Positions 25,265 to 34,015 of a stretch of 44,925 nt of DNA are shown here, piece by piece. Both the position numbers and the translations under genes were made by a program. The stretch spans positions 1 to 44,925 of IMG/VR virus record IMGVR_UViG_3300005732_000026; one strand, 5' to 3'. Every line of letters begins with the position of its first letter. The stretch's first letter is position 1. Source of the DNA: a virus. A model generated the notes under the pieces. That model did not search any database, was not told the DNA's origin, and was given only the letters and a program-made list of their open reading frames with translations.

Positions 25265-25691
25265 GGGAAATCTCCCCGATGGGCCCAACGGTCACTTCAA
25301 CGCGCGTGTGATCTGAATAGAACTTGGTCGAGCCGATCCCGCACACTTGGGCATCATCGTTGAAAGCAATCGTGTTGAGCCCGTCCAGAATGGCTTTGTT
25401 CACGTTGTCCAGGTCAGGCTTTTTGGCAGGCCGCATCTTGCCGTCCCGCATCAACGCCTTTTTGTATTTCGGCGCGCTCTTGGGGATCGGATAGAAAGCG
25501 TTGATGCGAACCCACACAGCGCCCTCATAGGGCGGGCGCCCCGCCATCACGGATTGAGCCGCCGCCTGGACCTGCTTCTCGTAAGTCGCGGTCTTGGCGT
25601 CGGTGTATGCGACCATGTGCCGACCCCGCTTACCAAAGCGAGGCCGGCCCTTGCCGCGCGGATCGCCGTGTATGACGAACGAAACCGGCAT
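25257..25691 (-). CDS. rusA: RusA-type Holliday junction resolvase, 144 aa
   Basis: The family signature KKPDLDNVNKAILDGLN is at residues 90-106, with D93, D95 and K99, and a further acidic pair D112-D113 (NDDAQV). The N terminus has the PRGKGRPRFGKRG turn. The length is usual for RusA. It cuts Holliday junctions and branched packaging intermediates. It works with the exonuclease/RecT pair encoded on the other strand, and sits in the replication operon with its start overlapping the upstream stop. Confidence 0.92.
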   Translation of the reverse strand: MPVSFVIHGDPRGKGRPRFGKRGRHMVAYTDAKTATYEKQVQAAAQSVMAGRPPYEGAVWVRINAFYPIPKSAPKYKKALMRDGKMRPAKKPDLDNVNKAILDGLNTIAFNDDAQVCGIGSTKFYSDHTRVEVTVGPIGEISHG

Positions 25692-26392
25692 CAGGCTTCG
25701 ATGCCCTTCAGCGCCGACTCTTCGTCATCGACCGGATCGGCTTCATCCCGTTCAGCCCGCCAGTCATCGCCATCACCGGCCAGCGGGTCTTCGTCATCCG
25801 CCTCGGTTTCGGCCTCAACAGGAAGATCATCATCAGCCGGCTCGATAGGTTCCGGTTCAGCTTCAGGCTCGGGATCGGCCGGCGTCGATTGCGACATGGA
25901 CATGCCCGCGACGATGCATTTCTGCGCATCGTGCCAACCCTGAAGCCAATGCTTGTATCCATCATCACCTGAGCGATGCGGATTTTGTTCAGAGCCGACA
26001 TTGTTCGACCCAGCCCGGAAGCCGTCGAAGCGCCATTGCTCTTCAAGAGCCGACCTATCCGGTTGTTCGAAGAGATCGAATTGGTGGCTGATCGGGTGGT
26101 TGAATGCCCGCAGGATCGAGCCGATTTCCGCCAGGTCATTGCGAACTTCATCGTCATCCGCAGCCAGCAGAATTTCGCGGGCACGGTCGAAGTTCTTCAG
26201 CTTGATACCATCAGCCTGGATGGTCTTGAGGTATTTCCGCTTCTTGGCGCCCGCCGCTTTGGCGGTTTCCTTGGCCTTGGCTTCGACCTCTTCGAGCTTG
26301 GCCAGCTCGGAATGGTGAAACACCACGAGATTGTCGGGCACATTTTTGAGGGGGGGATTGCCGGACGTATTTCCCCCAGCGTCATTGGACAT
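25691..26392 (-). CDS. 233-aa protein with ribosome modulation factor-like motif
   Basis: The middle (WRFDGFRAG, then NPHRSGDDGYKHWLQGWHDA) closely follows the RMF pattern: Gly-x-x-Ala-Gly helix, Asn/Cys-Pro turn, then W-L-x-G-W helix. The N-terminal half is helical (VEAKAKETAKAAGAKKRKYL) and the C-terminal 70 residues are almost all acidic and Pro. RMF dimerises ribosomes in stationary phase; many phages carry RMF-like domains with no proven role. The third gene from the repressor, so expressed early. RMF assignment is by motif recall. Confidence 0.6.
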   Translation of the reverse strand: MSNDAGGNTSGNPPLKNVPDNLVVFHHSELAKLEEVEAKAKETAKAAGAKKRKYLKTIQADGIKLKNFDRAREILLAADDDEVRNDLAEIGSILRAFNHPISHQFDLFEQPDRSALEEQWRFDGFRAGSNNVGSEQNPHRSGDDGYKHWLQGWHDAQKCIVAGMSMSQSTPADPEPEAEPEPIEPADDDLPVEAETEADDEDPLAGDGDDWRAERDEADPVDDEESALKGIEA

Positions 26393-27922: not shown

Positions 27923-27978
27923 TGGCTGATCGTATTTCCACTGGCGCGATATGGAAGCCGATGAAAGGTGAAATCTGA
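27922..27978 (+). CDS. Possible 18-aa leader-like peptide
   Basis: ATG 27922 overlaps the preceding stop (TGATG), with AGGGAG ahead. It encodes MADRISTGAIWKPMKGEI and its stop overlaps the next start (TGATG). The chain of overlaps suggests it is translated as a coupling link between two genes. Confidence 0.35.
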   Translation: MADRISTGAIWKPMKGEI

Positions 27979-28082
27979 TGCGTCCCCTATTTCGTTCATG
28001 GACCCCGCTGAAAATCTTTACTGGCCGCGGAATGCTGGTTGCAGTCGCAATTGGCGCGCTTGTGATTTGGATGGTGAGCTGA
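27978..28082 (+). CDS. Single-span membrane micropeptide, 34 aa
   Basis: MRPLFRSWTPLKIFTGRG is followed by MLVAVAIGALVIWMVS, one hydrophobic span of about 16 residues with a basic N-terminal tail. Its stop overlaps the exonuclease start (TGATG). Third member of the set of membrane micropeptides. Confidence 0.5.
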   Translation: MRPLFRSWTPLKIFTGRGMLVAVAIGALVIWMVS

Positions 28083-29116
28083 TGACCGATCCGATCATCA
28101 CCGAGAACTGCATCCGTGGCGATCTGACGCTGGAAACATACCACCAGCAGATTTGCGCCGGCCCCAGCTTCTCGTCATCCAACCTTCGCGACTGTGAGCT
28201 GCGATCGCCGAGCCACGCTTATGCCGGATGGTCAGGCAATCCGGACCGTGAGCCCGAGAGCACGAAAGCCCTGTCTTTCGGATCGGCCGCGCACGCCCTG
28301 GTGTTGGGTGACGAGGCATTCTCCGTGCGCCACGTCGTCATGCCGTTCAATGACTATGCTCGTATCGAAACGATCGACGGTGTGACGTGGAAGCCAAGGC
28401 CCGCAGCGAAGGACTCCGAGATCGACGTTTCGACCGGCGCTCTTCGATACAAGAGCCTCTGGCGCGACGACATGCTTCGGCAGGGCAAATCGATCGTGAG
28501 CCAGGACGACTTGCGCCACATCAGGAATATGGCCGAGGTGGTCGCCACAGATCCGAGGCTGGATTGCGTCTTTGCCGGTGATGTCGAGCAATCTTGTTTT
28601 TGGAAAGATGAGCAGACCGGCTTGTGGCTGAAGTCCCGCCTGGATGTCCGCCCGCTGGACGACACGCTGGTCGATTTCAAGACCACGCCGAATGCGTCAC
28701 CCCGCAAGTGCGAATATGCGATCACCACCTACGGCTACGACATGCAATTCGCTCTGGGTGCCGAGGGACTTTTGGTCGCGGCCGGCCAGAAGATTTATGC
28801 CCACATGGCGATCTTCCAAGAGAAAGAGCCACCGTACGCGGTGACGCCCGTCGAGATCGGAGCTCAGGCGATTTGGCGATCAGCCCAGCGCAACCGCCGT
28901 GCGCTCGACACTCTTGCCATGTGCTTGGAGCGGAATGAGTGGCCCGGGTACGCGATGCCCGCCCCGTACCAGCAGCCGGAATGGTTGGAGAATCGTCTTC
29001 AGAAGGAAGAGGACGGCGGGTTGCTGACTCCCGCGCCGGCATGGCTGGAAGAATTGAAACAGGACCGGGGCCCCGCGCCGGATGCCGATTACGACATGGA
29101 GATTGATCTGTCATGA
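28082..29116 (+). CDS. PD-(D/E)XK exonuclease (phage recombination exonuclease), 344 aa
   Basis: The start ATG 28082 overlaps the preceding stop; the longer frame is a shadow. The N-terminal SASPISFMD-type residues belong to that shadow and are excluded. The catalytic core is DDTLVDFKTT near residues 191-200 (D...D-x-K), preceded by WLKSRLDVRP and followed by a YGYDMQFALGAEGL helix. It lies just before the annealing gene recT, the standard exo-annealase pair of phage recombination. It digests one strand of double-stranded ends to load RecT. Confidence 0.85.
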   Translation: MTDPIITENCIRGDLTLETYHQQICAGPSFSSSNLRDCELRSPSHAYAGWSGNPDREPESTKALSFGSAAHALVLGDEAFSVRHVVMPFNDYARIETIDGVTWKPRPAAKDSEIDVSTGALRYKSLWRDDMLRQGKSIVSQDDLRHIRNMAEVVATDPRLDCVFAGDVEQSCFWKDEQTGLWLKSRLDVRPLDDTLVDFKTTPNASPRKCEYAITTYGYDMQFALGAEGLLVAAGQKIYAHMAIFQEKEPPYAVTPVEIGAQAIWRSAQRNRRALDTLAMCLERNEWPGYAMPAPYQQPEWLENRLQKEEDGGLLTPAPAWLEELKQDRGPAPDADYDMEIDLS

Positions 29117-29390: not shown

Positions 29391-30506
29391 ATGAGCACCG
29401 AACTGACAACAAGTGAACAAGCCAAGCCCGTCGCAAAATGGAAGCAGACCCTTGCCAATGCGATGCCGCAACTGGCCGAGTCCCTTCCGCGCCACATCAC
29501 CGCCGACAAATTCCGACAGGTGGCATCGGTTGCGATCAGCCGGAACAAGGACATCATGCGCTGCATGGACCAAGATCCGAAAGCGGTCCTGCTGTCTTTG
29601 GCCGATTGCGCAAAGGATGGGCTGCTGCCGGACGGCAAGGAAGCCGCCCTGGTGCCGTTCAAGGGGTCGCTGACGTACATCCCCATGATCAAGGGCGTCC
29701 TCAAGCAGATGCGCAACAGCGGCGAGATCGCGTCCATCAGCGCGCAAATCGTCCACGAGAACGACACGTTCAGCTTCCGCCAGGGTGACGACGAGCGGCT
29801 TGAGCATGAGCCGAATTGGAAGGGTGAGCGGGGCGAGCCGGTCGCTGCATACGCGATCATCCGCATGAAGTCCGGCGAGATATATCGCGAGGTTATGTCC
29901 AGGGTGCAGATCATGGCCGTGAAGAACGCGAGCCGTGCCAAGGGCGGCCCGTGGTCCGGTCCCTTCGAGCTTGAGATGTGGCGCAAGACAGTGCTGAAGC
30001 GTGCCGCAAAATACTGCCCGCTCTCCGACGAACGCATCCACGACATGCTCGATCGTGACAATGACCTATACGACCTGGGCCGTGCCAATCAGCCCACCCC
30101 CATTGAAAGCCGCTTCGACAAGATCAGGGGCGAGCAGATGCGGCCGCGGTATGACGCGATCGAGCACGACGAAGTGCCGGCGCGTGACGTCCATGACGAA
30201 GTTCCCGAAACCATCGATGCGGATCCCTCCCCGAAAAGTGTCGATGCGGGCGGGGAGGAGATTTCAGGGGAGCCAAACCCTGAAGTGGTCGAGGCCGAAC
30301 AGGCTGACGACACCTCCTCCTCGCAACAATCTGACGGCATGTCTGATGCCCAGCGCTTCTATTACGATGCCCTGGGTCAGATGAAGAAAGCGAAGACCAA
30401 GGCCGCCCGGGAGAAGCTTCTGGCGACGATTTCGGACGACCCGCTCTGGCAGGACGTGCCGGAGTCCAAGCAAGATCAGATCATCAATGCAGCGGGGGCG
30501 GAATGA
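29391..30506 (+). CDS. recT: RecT single-strand annealing protein, 371 aa
   Basis: The RecT family core is clear: AKPVAKWKQTLANAMPQLAE, then SLADCAKDGLLPDGKEAALV and PMIKGVLKQMRNSGEI, then EMWRKTVLKRAAKYCPLS. The C-terminal 110 residues are acidic and low-complexity, a common tail. It binds single-stranded DNA left by the exonuclease and anneals it. AGGAGA precedes ATG 29391. Family length is about 270-370 aa, so this is at the upper end because of the acidic tail. Confidence 0.93.
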   Translation: MSTELTTSEQAKPVAKWKQTLANAMPQLAESLPRHITADKFRQVASVAISRNKDIMRCMDQDPKAVLLSLADCAKDGLLPDGKEAALVPFKGSLTYIPMIKGVLKQMRNSGEIASISAQIVHENDTFSFRQGDDERLEHEPNWKGERGEPVAAYAIIRMKSGEIYREVMSRVQIMAVKNASRAKGGPWSGPFELEMWRKTVLKRAAKYCPLSDERIHDMLDRDNDLYDLGRANQPTPIESRFDKIRGEQMRPRYDAIEHDEVPARDVHDEVPETIDADPSPKSVDAGGEEISGEPNPEVVEAEQADDTSSSQQSDGMSDAQRFYYDALGQMKKAKTKAAREKLLATISDDPLWQDVPESKQDQIINAAGAE

Positions 30507-30697: not shown

Positions 30698-30948
30698 TCG
30701 AGCGCACCGTCAGCCATATGCTTGAAAAGCACGGCCCCACGATGCCCCTTGCGGACGTCCTGGGCGAGTTCCATATATCGGAACGGACGGTGCGCAAGTA
30801 TCTCCAAAACGGCACGCTGCCAAAGCCCGCAGTAAAAGGCCGGTATCCGACAGAGATCGTGACCCGGACATTCTGCGGCCAACCTGATGAGGAAGCCGAT
30901 GTCCGCAAAGGTCATCAATCTGGCGACGAAGACGACCCCTTCGCCTGA
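30694..30948 (+). CDS. Excisionase-like HTH protein, 84 aa
   Basis: MPLADVLGEFHISERTVRKYL followed by NGTLPKPAVKGRYPTEIV is a MerR/excisionase-type winged helix: helix 2 ISERTVRKYL, then the wing with a Pro pair. It directly precedes the integrase and overlaps it by 50 bp, the classic xis-int arrangement. It would bend DNA at the attachment site and bias the integrase towards excision. Confidence 0.75.
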   Translation: MIERTVSHMLEKHGPTMPLADVLGEFHISERTVRKYLQNGTLPKPAVKGRYPTEIVTRTFCGQPDEEADVRKGHQSGDEDDPFA

Positions 30949-32215
30949 GTACGCCGGCCAGTATCTCCGGACGATGCCGCGCCCCAACAAGGCGGGTGTT
31001 CGTTTCGAGTTCTGGTTCAAGCCCCCGAAGTCCATCCGACCCGACGAATGGGACAGGCGCTATCGTCCGTCCATCCGTCTGCCACGGGACGGCGGGCTTC
31101 GCACCGGCCGCGATCCCAAGGACGATCCGCGAGAGTACGCCGCTGCATTCAGCGAGGCCGCGGAGCTGTTTGCCGAGATGAACCGGCTTCGCGATGCCCC
31201 GACCAGTGGTGGCGCATGGCCCAGAGGAACACTGCGCTGGCTGATCCAGGAGTGGCAACAATCCGAATGGTTCACCGCCGACCTGGCTGACACCACTCGC
31301 CGCAATTACGAGCAGCAGATCGCCAGCATCATCGAGTGGACCGATCGCAAGGCCGAGCAGAACAACTCGGGCATCCCGATCCAGGCCCACCGTCTGACAT
31401 CCAAGGGCGTGGCCAATTTCCTTCATGAGTTCGACGACCGGTCGACAAAGCGTCGCCATGTCCGGCGCGTTCTCAAGAACCTGTGTTCCTATGCGATTGA
31501 GCTCGGGCTTCGCAATGACAATCCAGTCGATGGGCTTGTCATGCGCCGCACCAAGGGCGCCCAGAAGGCCGCGGCGCTCTGGGACCAAGCCTTTGTCGAT
31601 GCCTGCGCGAAGTGGGCCCGTGAGAACGATCACCTTGAGGCGGCCGCAATGGTTCTGCTGATGTGGGATTGCGGGCGCCGGCCGTCTGACATCTTCCGAC
31701 TGATCGCTATGAACGACATGGACCGGCAGTCGCTGTTGAACGGAACCCTGAACGGATCCACCCGCCCGATCTTATACGACCCACGTAGACGCGCGATCAT
31801 GGGATGGGTGGCCAAGACAGGGAATTACATCGAAATCCCTCTGGATGAGGCCACAATCGAAGCTATCGCGCATGTCTGCCCCGAGCCGACCGAGAACCGG
31901 CGCCATCTGTTCGTCCACCAGCGGACCGGCGAGCCGTACACCCAGGACACCTGGAAGTGGGTTTGGACATCGATGCGAGACTATGCAGCGAAGAAGCCGG
32001 CACGCGCGGCATACCGGACGACCACTTGGCAAAAAGGCCGGGCATCCGCGATCGTGCGCAACAAGCGGGCCGGCCTCGACGACGCCGACATCATCACCCT
32101 GTCCGATCACTCAAATCCGAAGACCGTCTACAAGCATTATTGGACCCCGGATGACACCCAGGCGGCCGAGGCAAAACGCCGGCGCCGGGAAGCGGAAAGT
32201 GAGAACGCCGCATGA
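30899..32215 (+). CDS. int: Tyrosine integrase, 438 aa
   Basis: The start ATG 30899 has GAGGAAG ahead; an ATG four codons earlier has none. The N-terminal arm-binding part is basic. A SAM-like core-binding domain spans WLIQEWQQSEWFTADLADTT onward. The catalytic Arg is in MWDCGRRPSDIFRL (about residue 257), the second Arg in WQKGRASAIV (about 380), then SDHSNPKTVYKHYW with the His and the likely nucleophile Tyr at about 410-413. The box II HxxR is degenerate (Q-K-G-R). It shows the phage is temperate. The attachment site was not located. Confidence 0.9.
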   Translation: MSAKVINLATKTTPSPEYAGQYLRTMPRPNKAGVRFEFWFKPPKSIRPDEWDRRYRPSIRLPRDGGLRTGRDPKDDPREYAAAFSEAAELFAEMNRLRDAPTSGGAWPRGTLRWLIQEWQQSEWFTADLADTTRRNYEQQIASIIEWTDRKAEQNNSGIPIQAHRLTSKGVANFLHEFDDRSTKRRHVRRVLKNLCSYAIELGLRNDNPVDGLVMRRTKGAQKAAALWDQAFVDACAKWARENDHLEAAAMVLLMWDCGRRPSDIFRLIAMNDMDRQSLLNGTLNGSTRPILYDPRRRAIMGWVAKTGNYIEIPLDEATIEAIAHVCPEPTENRRHLFVHQRTGEPYTQDTWKWVWTSMRDYAAKKPARAAYRTTTWQKGRASAIVRNKRAGLDDADIITLSDHSNPKTVYKHYWTPDDTQAAEAKRRRREAESENAA

Positions 32216-32391: not shown

Positions 32392-32465
32392 CCCGCCGCC
32401 GAGACTTCACCCTATGGGCCGTGCTGGCTCTGTTTGCTGTGGCCGTATTTGGAGGAATGACCTGA
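32388..32465 (+). CDS. Single-span membrane micropeptide, 25 aa
   Basis: MTRRRDFTLWAVLALFAVAV is followed by FGGMT: a charged N terminus and one hydrophobic span. Its stop overlaps the start of the repeat gene (TGATG), and GGAGGA inside its codons serves as that gene's ribosome binding site. Confidence 0.5.
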   Translation: MTRRRDFTLWAVLALFAVAVFGGMT

Positions 32466-33643
32466 TGACTAAAATTGAACGCCTAACACACGAACAAGTT
32501 TCCGCACTTCCAGCCTACCGAGATAAGTGGCTCAAGATCGGCCTTGCTACTGGCCGTGCCGACCGGGGCGCGGCTGAGGCGGCGGTAGACTCTGCCTATC
32601 AAGTCGCAGGAAAAGCGCCGCCGCGCTTCAAAATTTGGCTAACATCGCCACGAGAGGGCGCGATTGCTGCAACGCTTCTTGCCAACAGCAAGCTCGGACC
32701 AAGCGTCGGGGATCAGGTCTGGGATCAGGTCTGGGATCAGGTCGCGGCTCAGGTCGGGGCTCAGGTCGGGGCTCAGGTCGGGGATCAGGTCTGGGATCAG
32801 GTCGCGGCTCAGGTCAGGGATCAGGTCTGGGCTCAGGTCGGGGATCAGGTCGGGGCTCAGGTCGGGGATCAGGTCAGGGCTCAGGTCGGGGATCAGGTCT
32901 GGGCTCAGGTCGGGGATCAGGTCAGGGCTCAGGTCTGGGATCAGGTCAGGGCTCAGGTCAGGGATCAGGTCAGGGCTCAGGTCAGGGATCAGGTCGGGGC
33001 TCAGGTCGGGGCTCAGGTCTACCGCGCCGGATATGGTGCGCACGACGCCAACTGGCTTGGTTTCTACGAGTTTTTCTTAGAGCAATGCGGGTTAGAGTCT
33101 CCACAGCGCTTAAAGCCGCTTATTGAGCTATCCAAAAACTGCGGCTGGTGGTGGCCCTTCGAGGGTGCCGTTGTTTTGACTGAGAGGCCGACCGTCATCA
33201 AGTTTGATGATGCGCGCCGCCTTCATGCAGAGACCGGACCGGCGATTGAATACGCGGACGGCCTAGGGATTTTCTCGTGGCATGGCACGCGCGTTCCCGA
33301 GGAATGGATTGTCAACAAAGATGGGTTGACGGCTCACACCGCCTTGACCTGGGAAAATGTCGAGCAACGGCGCGCGGCCTGCGAAATCATCGGCTGGCAC
33401 AATGTACTTCGCGAATTGAACGCGCGCACGCTGGACAAGGACCAAGACCCGGAAATCGGCGAGCTGGTCGAAGTCGATATTCCAGAAATCGGCCGGGAGC
33501 GTTTCTTGCGCGTTCTCTGCGCAACGGGGCGTGAGTTTGCCCTTCCAGTCCCTCCAGAAATGCAGACCGCACTTGAGGCGCAGTCATGGATTCACGGCGG
33601 GGTGCCGCAGGAGCTTATCCGTCAAATTGAAGTCACAGCATAG
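32465..33643 (+). CDS. DUF6745-type protein with 26 tandem X-(D/A)-Q-V repeats, 392 aa
   Basis: The start ATG 32465 follows GGAGGA; longer frames are shadows. Residues 1-81 are helical ([20 protein letters not shown]). Residues 82-185 are 26 perfect four-residue repeats, X-(D/A)-Q-V with X = G (11), W (6), A (2) or R (7). Residues 186 onward contain [18 protein letters not shown], then the DUF6745 pattern [17 protein letters not shown] and [13 protein letters not shown], then [20 protein letters not shown]. The repeat could form a helical or coiled surface, with W/R/G varying on one face. Function is unknown. The next gene is a usual partner of this family. Confidence 0.8.
32708..33019 (+). 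repeat. Tandem array of 26 twelve-base units with a 24-base higher-order unit
   Basis: Each unit is codon 1 (GGG, TGG, AGG or GCG), codon 2 (GAT or GCT), then an invariant CAGGTC. Codon 2 is GAT in exactly 13 units and GCT in 13, and alternates strictly from unit 10 to unit 25, giving a 24-base period. Unit length is a multiple of three, so copy-number change keeps the frame. At least four of the six frames are open across the array, which creates long low-complexity shadow frames. Confidence 0.95.
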
Positions 33644-33652
33644 GAGATTGAA

Positions 33653-34015
33653 ATGCTGACGTTCGAAAAAGTAGCCCGTCAGGGCGATCTGTTTATCCAC
33701 CGCGTTGCTGCGCTGCCGGAGGGGCTTGTTCCTGCCGTCACGGACAATGGGGCGTTTGTCCTCGCTCACTCTGAAACTGGACACAACCATGTGCTTATGG
33801 AGCGTCCAGGCGTCGAGGTTTTGGAAGACCCGAATGAGCCGCTGCGCGCGTTTCTGGTCATCCGGCAGGAAGCGATCGATGCCGGTGATATCAAGATCGA
33901 ACACAAACGCACCTTTGACACTCACGAGACAATCAGTCCGGTCACGCCGGGCATCTACCAGATCACGCGCCAGCGCGAATACACGCCAGAGGGGTACCGG
34001 CGGGCGCAGGACTGA
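33653..34015 (+). CDS. Partner protein of the DUF6745 gene, 120 aa
   Basis: The start ATG 33653 has AGGAGA ahead. FEKVARQGDLFIHRVAALPE, then FVLAHSETGHNHVLM and PVTPGIYQITRQREYTPEGY are typical of a small beta protein that I recall next to DUF6745 genes in many bacteria and phages. The H-S-x-T-G-H-x-H run could bind a metal. Function unknown. A strong RNA hairpin follows it. Confidence 0.7.
   Translation: MLTFEKVARQGDLFIHRVAALPEGLVPAVTDNGAFVLAHSETGHNHVLMERPGVEVLEDPNEPLRAFLVIRQEAIDAGDIKIEHKRTFDTHETISPVTPGIYQITRQREYTPEGYRRAQD

Follow-up and report, generated by a model that had tools for sequence, protein, structure and literature searches.

A variable repeat of tetrapeptide units, real and unusual, is widespread in phage contigs and distant bacterial genomes; its variation lies mostly in two side chains per unit (X and Y, mainly {G,W,R} x {D,A}). 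We tentatively read this array as a recombination-scrambled variable interaction arm, possibly helical, of an intracellular phage module comprising a DUF6745 protein and its partner, a reading that in our judgement falls just short of an even chance. It builds on the anatomy of the array, the pattern of amino-acid-changing and silent differences, the differences between arrays with near-identical flanks, the separability of the array and its linkage to a partner gene, each documented below at the level of sequence. The window, by which we mean the whole stretch of DNA that was analysed, is a single IMG/VR virus record of 44,925 bases.

The array gene of the window (32465..33643, + strand; ATG at 32465, stop at 33643) encodes a 392-aa protein with a match to PF20530. 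The match covers residues 187-378 (E 8.4e-33) and scores 113.8 bits, above the Pfam gathering cut-off of 27, in agreement with the original prediction of a DUF6745-type gene; the domain (33023..33598, +) is also well modelled by AlphaFold2. An N-terminal domain (residues 1-81; 32465..32707, +), recognised by alignment, blastp and AlphaFold2, is kept among relatives and occurs too in array-free DUF6745 proteins. Between these two domains lies the array (32708..33019, +; residues 82-185), and a recount agrees with the predicted 26 contiguous 12-base units, of the form [G/W/R/A]-[D/A]-Q-V. The first codon is GGG in 11 units, AGG in seven, TGG in six and GCG in two; GAT and GCT fill the second codon 13 times each and CAGGTC is present in 26/26 units, both as had been claimed. 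The unit GGGGATCAGGTC, with one mismatch or fewer, occurs 18 times in the window, always inside the array (0.27 expected from shuffles). Outside it, Tandem Repeats Finder reported a degenerate tandem repeat with a 45-base period (2.1 copies, 25684-25780).

Tandem Repeats Finder described the array itself both with a period of 12 (26.2 copies, 87% matches) and with a period of 24 (13.1 copies, 91% matches). The strict alternation of GAT and GCT that had been noticed over units 10-25 is real (P ~3e-4, 200,000 shuffles), and this D/A alternation fits the 24-base period. The predicted higher-order period thus stands for codon 2 over those 16 units; codon 1 departs from it, and whole units in the window array recur in runs of at most 2, compared with 2.42 in shuffles. 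As a general feature the 24-base period did not hold, being local to the window: across 74 related arrays of at least 16 units, the lag-2 excess was at most 1.6 standard errors. For all tested values of k between 37 and 77, positions 32501-33200 contained no repeated k-mer, which makes assembly collapse or artefact an unlikely source of the window array; in 88/88 arrays of the family, array k-mers were unique at a k of 121 or less.

The original prediction had proposed looking for the same tetrapeptide period in other DUF6745 proteins, and such searches found it in many phage contigs and distant bacterial genomes. An IMG/VR scan with the window protein gave 122 related stretches, 80 of which were kept; 78 of the 80 hold a run of at least eight xxQ[VIL] units (L023 has 4, L045 has 7), a proportion biased towards arrays because two of the six scan patterns were array peptides. 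In a scan of GTDB contigs, 13 of 16 loci contained a run of at least eight such units, and the loci include Rhizobium, Methylopila, Ruegeria, Amycolatopsis, Singulisphaera and Dojkabacteria names; shorter runs were found in Calothrix, one Chromatiales and one Flavobacteriaceae locus. The arrays of Methylopila jiangsuensis VKM B-2555 (L197) and Ruegeria sp. EL01 (L201) have 31 and 9 units, respectively. A Mycobacterium abscessus prophage carries 46 units ending in Q-L, and Nocardia farcinica is among the named records with an array. DUF6745 itself is sparse across the three phyla surveyed by profile: 6/198 genomes in the phylum of the Amycolatopsis locus, 10/117 in that of Calothrix and 3/299 in that of Methylopila (the centre genome counted in each). 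The cyanobacterial DUF6745 members printed are without a perfect array, and some have short degenerate xxQL runs; degenerate tetrads in chromosomal members were noted in five ORFs with runs of at least four (L235, L237, L242, L246 and L249), which were chosen, from among 44 loci resolved in part, with a pattern that admitted more than Q as the third residue.

Several side observations accompany this survey. The genome of Calothrix parasitica NIES-267 has 13 DUF6745 matches, four with an in-frame stop, and is host to an expanding and decaying DUF6745 family. On the minus strand of L211 the array is also open in reverse, as 37 tetrads of S/I-P-D-L, which is a hazard for automatic annotation. The pairs L009/L067 and L042/L068 are each single contigs with both ends inside an array; contigs can therefore break or be cut in the array, and array-bearing phages may be under-counted. 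An unannotated 12-base tandem repeat (CGCAGGTACGTA-like; L085:60-330) on the Blattabacterium plasmid pMADAR_001 reads RTQV in one frame; it has another sequence, and we rejected it as a relative, since it is probably a chance resemblance and perhaps represents origin repeats.

Constraint at the protein level was assessed in two sets of arrays. The first comprises 60 arrays (1,667 units) from protein-based searches, named records and the window; it omits loci found with a DNA pattern, because that pattern fixes codons. The second includes them and comprises 88 non-redundant fused arrays in ORFs of at least 230 codons with at least 10 units (2,225 interior units). Arrays with fewer than eight units or not fitting (xxQ[VIL])n were dropped before counting, arrays contained in longer identical ones were merged (268 to 185), and the first and last units were left out for arrays of more than 10 units. 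Among the 60 arrays, minimal changes at X were 138 changing and 4 silent and those at Y 73 changing and 2 silent, or 211 amino-acid-changing against 6 silent at both positions combined, where random single changes in a unit would give about 27 changing to 8 silent. At Q there were 0 changing and 4 silent changes and at V 0 and 5; the search pattern itself admits no replacement of Q and only I or L in place of V, and the silent counts are free of this constraint. Minority silent codons at X, Y, Q and V were found in just 7, 21, 6 and 13 of the 2,225 interior units of the 88 arrays. The predicted confinement of variation to one or two side chains per unit thus largely extends across the family.

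Inside one array, Q and V are each nearly always written with one codon, and the codons differ between arrays: Q is CAG or CAA, the fourth residue GTC, GTG, GTT, GTA or CTC, R is AGG or CGG, and Y is GAT/GCT or GAC/GGC. Y is D or A (D/G or D/N in some dialects), mostly as GAT or GCT in the main dialect. The 60 arrays contain 18 codon-set strings, or 15 after removal of three mixed-R strings. A small protein alphabet shared by many codon sets is as expected from selection on the protein, which would be our explanation for the pattern of changing and silent sites; recurrence in at least 15 codon sets also makes it unlikely that the array is junk, as had been argued from the window alone. The uniformity of codons within each array would fit recent growth from a few units, and it is conceivable, if improbable, that a short founder was expanded by neutral slippage and that the variation is a functionless founder effect. 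Such growth would be in keeping with a one-unit duplication between relatives (described below) and with repeated runs of units that are slightly longer than in shuffles (mean longest run 4.46 v 3.23), from which we conclude that there has been some block copying. It would leave unexplained the recurrence of the same alphabet in so many codon sets, the near-absence of silent polymorphism beside changing differences, the absence of a local duplication signal at lag 1, and the persistence of arrays as open stretches of long ORFs beside a conserved partner.

The concentration of non-consensus letters at base 1 (1,135) and base 5 (827) of the 2,225 interior units, with 130 at base 2 and at most 55 elsewhere, is what targeted hypermutation would produce if, for example, a diversity-generating retroelement wrote the two variable codons. 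Diversity-generating retroelements act by random substitution of template adenines. They diversify a few codons of a phage or bacterial gene (PMC6199706; PMC10907252), and the array resembles their targets in that few codons of one gene are diversified. Unlike such systems, the window is without a reverse transcriptase (0 matches to PF00078 in the 44,925-base record, which is possibly incomplete), and the array draws on a limited, constant repertoire of letters and changes by entire units. In the main dialect most second codons are GAT or GCT rather than a free choice of letters, and AGG and CGG are found together for R, with both A and C at the first base, in just 2/60 arrays, so that first-base point mutation is not the main shuffler. 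We therefore regard hypermutation as very improbable.

Some relatives rewrite the array far faster than the surrounding DNA. The contigs L089 and L181 come from two metagenomes; their alignment of 9,928 columns contains no substitution and one 12-base gap, which lies in the array (29 v 30 units). The difference is explained by a single out-of-phase 12-base tandem duplication at offset 1-4 in the unit, which generates a novel R-A unit by pairing one unit's Y with the X of its successor; whole units can thus be gained or lost without a frameshift, as predicted. L293 and L362 (30 v 35 units) are identical over the 5' 150 and the 3' 299 bases, and beyond the first two units their arrays share nothing but some short blocks; longer aligned pieces around them show 96.0-98.0% identity. 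The array of Nocardia farcinica NCTC11134 (L086) has 38 units and differs from that of L046, with 15 units, whose source, IMG record 637000198, we take to be another N. farcinica. Their 5' flanks have 0 mismatches (252 columns, 24 gap columns) and their 3' flanks 4/600, and outside the gene the two form a mosaic, with patches of 90-97%, so the array could have been imported there. Assembly errors may affect the metagenome pairs. As a separate matter, the N. farcinica NCTC11134 records 'plasmid 3' and the end of 'plasmid 2' (L084/L086) share a repeat: 6.9 kb of the other record recurs in the 15-kb one at 99.8%, differing by 11 gap openings and without any mismatch, and the array frame is interrupted in one copy. 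Rather than a plasmid, the 15-kb record may be an assembly piece that was duplicated and carries indel errors.

In 79 distinct combinations of array and flanks, the 3' flank is at least 80% identical in 9 pairs, and each of these differs in its arrays (two involve L084, whose array is cut by the frame break, leaving seven); duplicates that matched in both array and flanks had been merged first, so that constancy could not show in this comparison. The original prediction had named constant unit number and order across isolates as evidence against it; fused arrays with near-identical flanks differ in the three contig pairs described, and two groups of stand-alone arrays are constant. The latter are L032/33/34, whose contigs are mismatched at 6 of 2,509 and 13 of 5,069 bases, and L311/313/314, with 11 mismatches in 5,340 and 7 in 3,714. 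Five further pairs (L018/L076, L058/L059, L005/L197, L041/L201 and L303/L304) have no mismatch in the aligned stretch and are uninformative.

The order of units within arrays is near random, with a largest |z| of 2.0 in 42 lag tests on arrays of at least 16 units; on the same figure we rejected an order tied to a solenoid or coil period. Composition was assessed in the 47 arrays of at least 20 units. X and Y are independent (observed/expected 0.97-1.03), neighbouring units are nearly so (0.93-1.09), and the content of W shows no more spread than random draws would give (chi2/df 1.19, P 0.18). These properties also fit a polymer-like part in which order is irrelevant: a helical or flexible multivalent scaffold that serves as a spacer, where length and the proportions of W, R, G, D and A matter and order drifts. 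This alternative, which we consider possible but doubtful, accords with W composition like draws from one fixed frequency, with lengths that range widely, from 9 units (L041) to 58 (L080), and with the existence of stand-alone forms. By itself it does not explain why silent sites are nearly unvaried beside highly varied X and Y, nor the over-dispersion of D (chi2/df 2.76); R and G+S are over-dispersed as well (1.79 and 1.97). Every one of the 47 arrays contains W, R and at least one of G and S.

The undecayed diversity of units also weighs against a mere spacer. In a crude simulation of neutral slippage, the lag-1 excess rose to 0.015, 0.041, 0.133 and 0.211 after 5, 10, 40 and 160 events, compared with an observed value of -0.022 +/- 0.013; this simple simulation loses diversity, gains lag-1 similarity and fails to reproduce the arrays. 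Either few slippage events have occurred since the order was last mixed, or something keeps the arrays diverse. Selection is the simplest answer for maintained diversity, and its object we can only infer.

The genes around the array gene bear on where its product would act. On the + strand it follows an exonuclease VIII-type gene (27968-29116; PHROG E 3.5e-64), a RecT gene (29391-30506; Pfam and PHROG) and an integrase gene (30887-32215; PHROG E 5.1e-12; Pfam 23.3 bits, under the cut-off of 27.1), and the - strand carries PHROG matches for tail protein, head-tail adaptor, tail fibre, internal virion protein, primase/helicase and HNH genes. Matches to the window exonuclease, RecT and integrase were detected with phmmer at 5, 5 and 2 loci, respectively, which indicates no general linkage at that sensitivity. 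The original prediction placed the array on a phase-variable surface carried by the phage, and fast in-frame variation does resemble that of variable surface proteins. A surface or host-range protein of the virion is nevertheless improbable, as the array gene sits with recombination and integration genes and away from head and tail genes, and no hydrophobic leader is seen by eye at the N-terminus of the window protein. Likewise, the array gene is accompanied by recT, exonuclease and integrase genes in the 15-kb Nocardia record, and follows ERF and RepA-like genes in the M. abscessus prophage. The phase-variable part of the claim also lacks support, since changes by 12-base units keep the frame and give no on/off switching as in a contingency locus.

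The partner gene (33653..34015, +; 120 aa), downstream of the array gene, carries the HSETGHNH motif that had been predicted for a usual neighbour. That it is usual was borne out among distinct fused-array genes with at least 900 bases known on both sides: it adjoins 56/63 (downstream of 29 and upstream of 27), on the same strand and no more than 400 bases away, and the remaining seven have no match at E <= 1e-3 to a partner profile built from 17 partners, some of them from loci later counted. Invariant or nearly invariant in the 17 aligned partners are M1, Q10, G11, P22, H39, S40, E41, G43, H44, H46, H91, G100, R108, E109, R116 and D120, which suggests a metal site; the partner would then carry a putative metal centre. 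No known family with a function was matched: the best Pfam E was 0.02, in 1/17 members, and the best NCBIfam E 0.1; the single PDB match has E 0.19, and the sole library match is phrog_27831 (unknown function). In the cyanobacterial genome at L245, a partner-like ORF (partner profile E 2.3e-19) stands beside a DUF6745 match.

The array is a separable module, to judge from the layout of related loci. In seven of the eight loci examined gene by gene (L022, L025, L030, L035, L039, L044 and L063; L083 is the exception), the DUF6745 protein is without an array (286-317 residues), and the locus also holds mini-genes of xxQV repeats, 2-13 per locus, which overlap end to start in L025, L030 and L063. 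A filter for proteins of 45-125 residues with half or more in xxQV-type runs yielded 63 distinct mini-proteins in 20 loci, including 13 in L030 and 9 in L063; some of these loci represent a single phage population seen more than once, and a few mini-genes may be fragments. Of the 63, 16 start with MKSV and 13 with MKLK. Between L025, L028 and L029, mini-genes have been gained, lost and fused, and the adjoining 5,928 bases differ by 0 or 1. Array-only mini-gene operons were seen in L030:4911-13584, L063:3938-10122, L113 and L039, many of whose genes overlap by a few bases with changes of frame; standard gene callers may miss or merge such overlapping genes. The fusion in the window joins parts that are encoded apart elsewhere, which suggests joint action. 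In L213 and L247, two loci of the cyanobacterial phylum, DUF6745 is fused to leucine-rich repeats, so that the domain also combines with other repeat modules.

The helix of the array is predicted. In the AlphaFold2 model of the window protein, pLDDT by blocks of ten is 71-96 over residues 1-80 and by blocks 86-95 over residues 201-350; the array (residues 82-185), for which the original prediction had proposed structure prediction, is modelled as helical at a pLDDT of 36-61 by blocks, which is unreliable and does not establish a helix there. The mini-array protein L030:7086-7322 was modelled as one helix of 77 residues (mean pLDDT 93, pTM 0.45). AlphaFold2 readily assigns helices to low-complexity sequence. 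Were a helix formed, a four-residue period would make X and Y wind slowly round the rod.

Searches with these models and sequences gave little indication of function. Foldseek of the window model against the PDB returned nothing with E <= 0.001; the best VIA-align result had Z 4.1 and rmsd 5.9 over 89 residues, with rows mostly in residues 310-384. In BFVD, three matches had E <= 0.001, one of them to a DUF6745 protein from a Microcystis phage and the other two to uncharacterised proteins of phages. PHROG matches of the array gene, like the better ones of the array and of mini-proteins or array stretches, are to families of unknown function. Matches of the array to PDB chain sequences (HeliScrew4, P230, eL29) look like low-complexity matches, and Pfam matches of the array and of four mini-proteins or array stretches were all under curated cut-offs; we rejected both. 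Against PADLOC-DB 2.0.0 the best E of the array gene was 0.19, and three partners and one array-free DUF6745 protein gave none at E <= 1, although a missing match in one library is no disproof of a defence role. In the literature searched, nothing was found on DUF6745 function or on the array peptides.

Under the interpretation that we favour, a variable interaction arm, the array would be inserted between two conserved domains of a DUF6745 protein that works with its histidine-rich neighbour inside the host cell. Q-V would be a fixed scaffold, and X (mostly G, W and R) and Y the variable side chains, possibly displayed round a long alpha helix. Recombination or slippage between near-identical units would change their number and order, and, with breaks at any phase, a duplication could join the X and Y of different units and so spell a new one. 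Selection at the protein level would keep both variable positions diverse and the remainder fixed, and the likely benefit would be the ability to recognise or evade a partner, in the host or a rival phage, that itself keeps changing. The intracellular site, the binding and the reason for the diversity are what we infer here.

A bolder version is unlikely: a minimal modular recognition code, in which a helix of four-residue units with about six side-chain pairs recognises or evades diverse host or phage molecules. Units in random order would then resemble a natural peptide library, rewritten by phase-free duplication and exchange, and temperate phages would use the array, without a retroelement, either fused to DUF6745 or as interchangeable mini-gene operons. 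To our knowledge, few proteins have repeats that vary at two residues and hardly elsewhere. TAL effector repeats, of about 34 residues with two hypervariable residues and near-identical DNA repeats, proved to be a readable recognition code. The array is like them in its near-identical DNA repeats, its variation at two residues per repeat and an order that differs between relatives; unlike them, it has a unit of four residues, is phage-borne and has a putative ligand only, and we claim no sequence relation. Single alpha-helix proteins have a charged composition, unlike the array with its fixed Q-V every fourth residue, its richness in G in the window and its fast rewriting. They (PMC12203971) resemble it in the long uninterrupted helix predicted for the stand-alone array.

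The array looks like a natural scrambling device. If it only scaffolds, something would still have to keep the silent sites fixed and the variable sites mixed; should it bind, modular recognition would rest on a unit of unusually small size, and the array would also be a generator of diversity that works without a retroelement.
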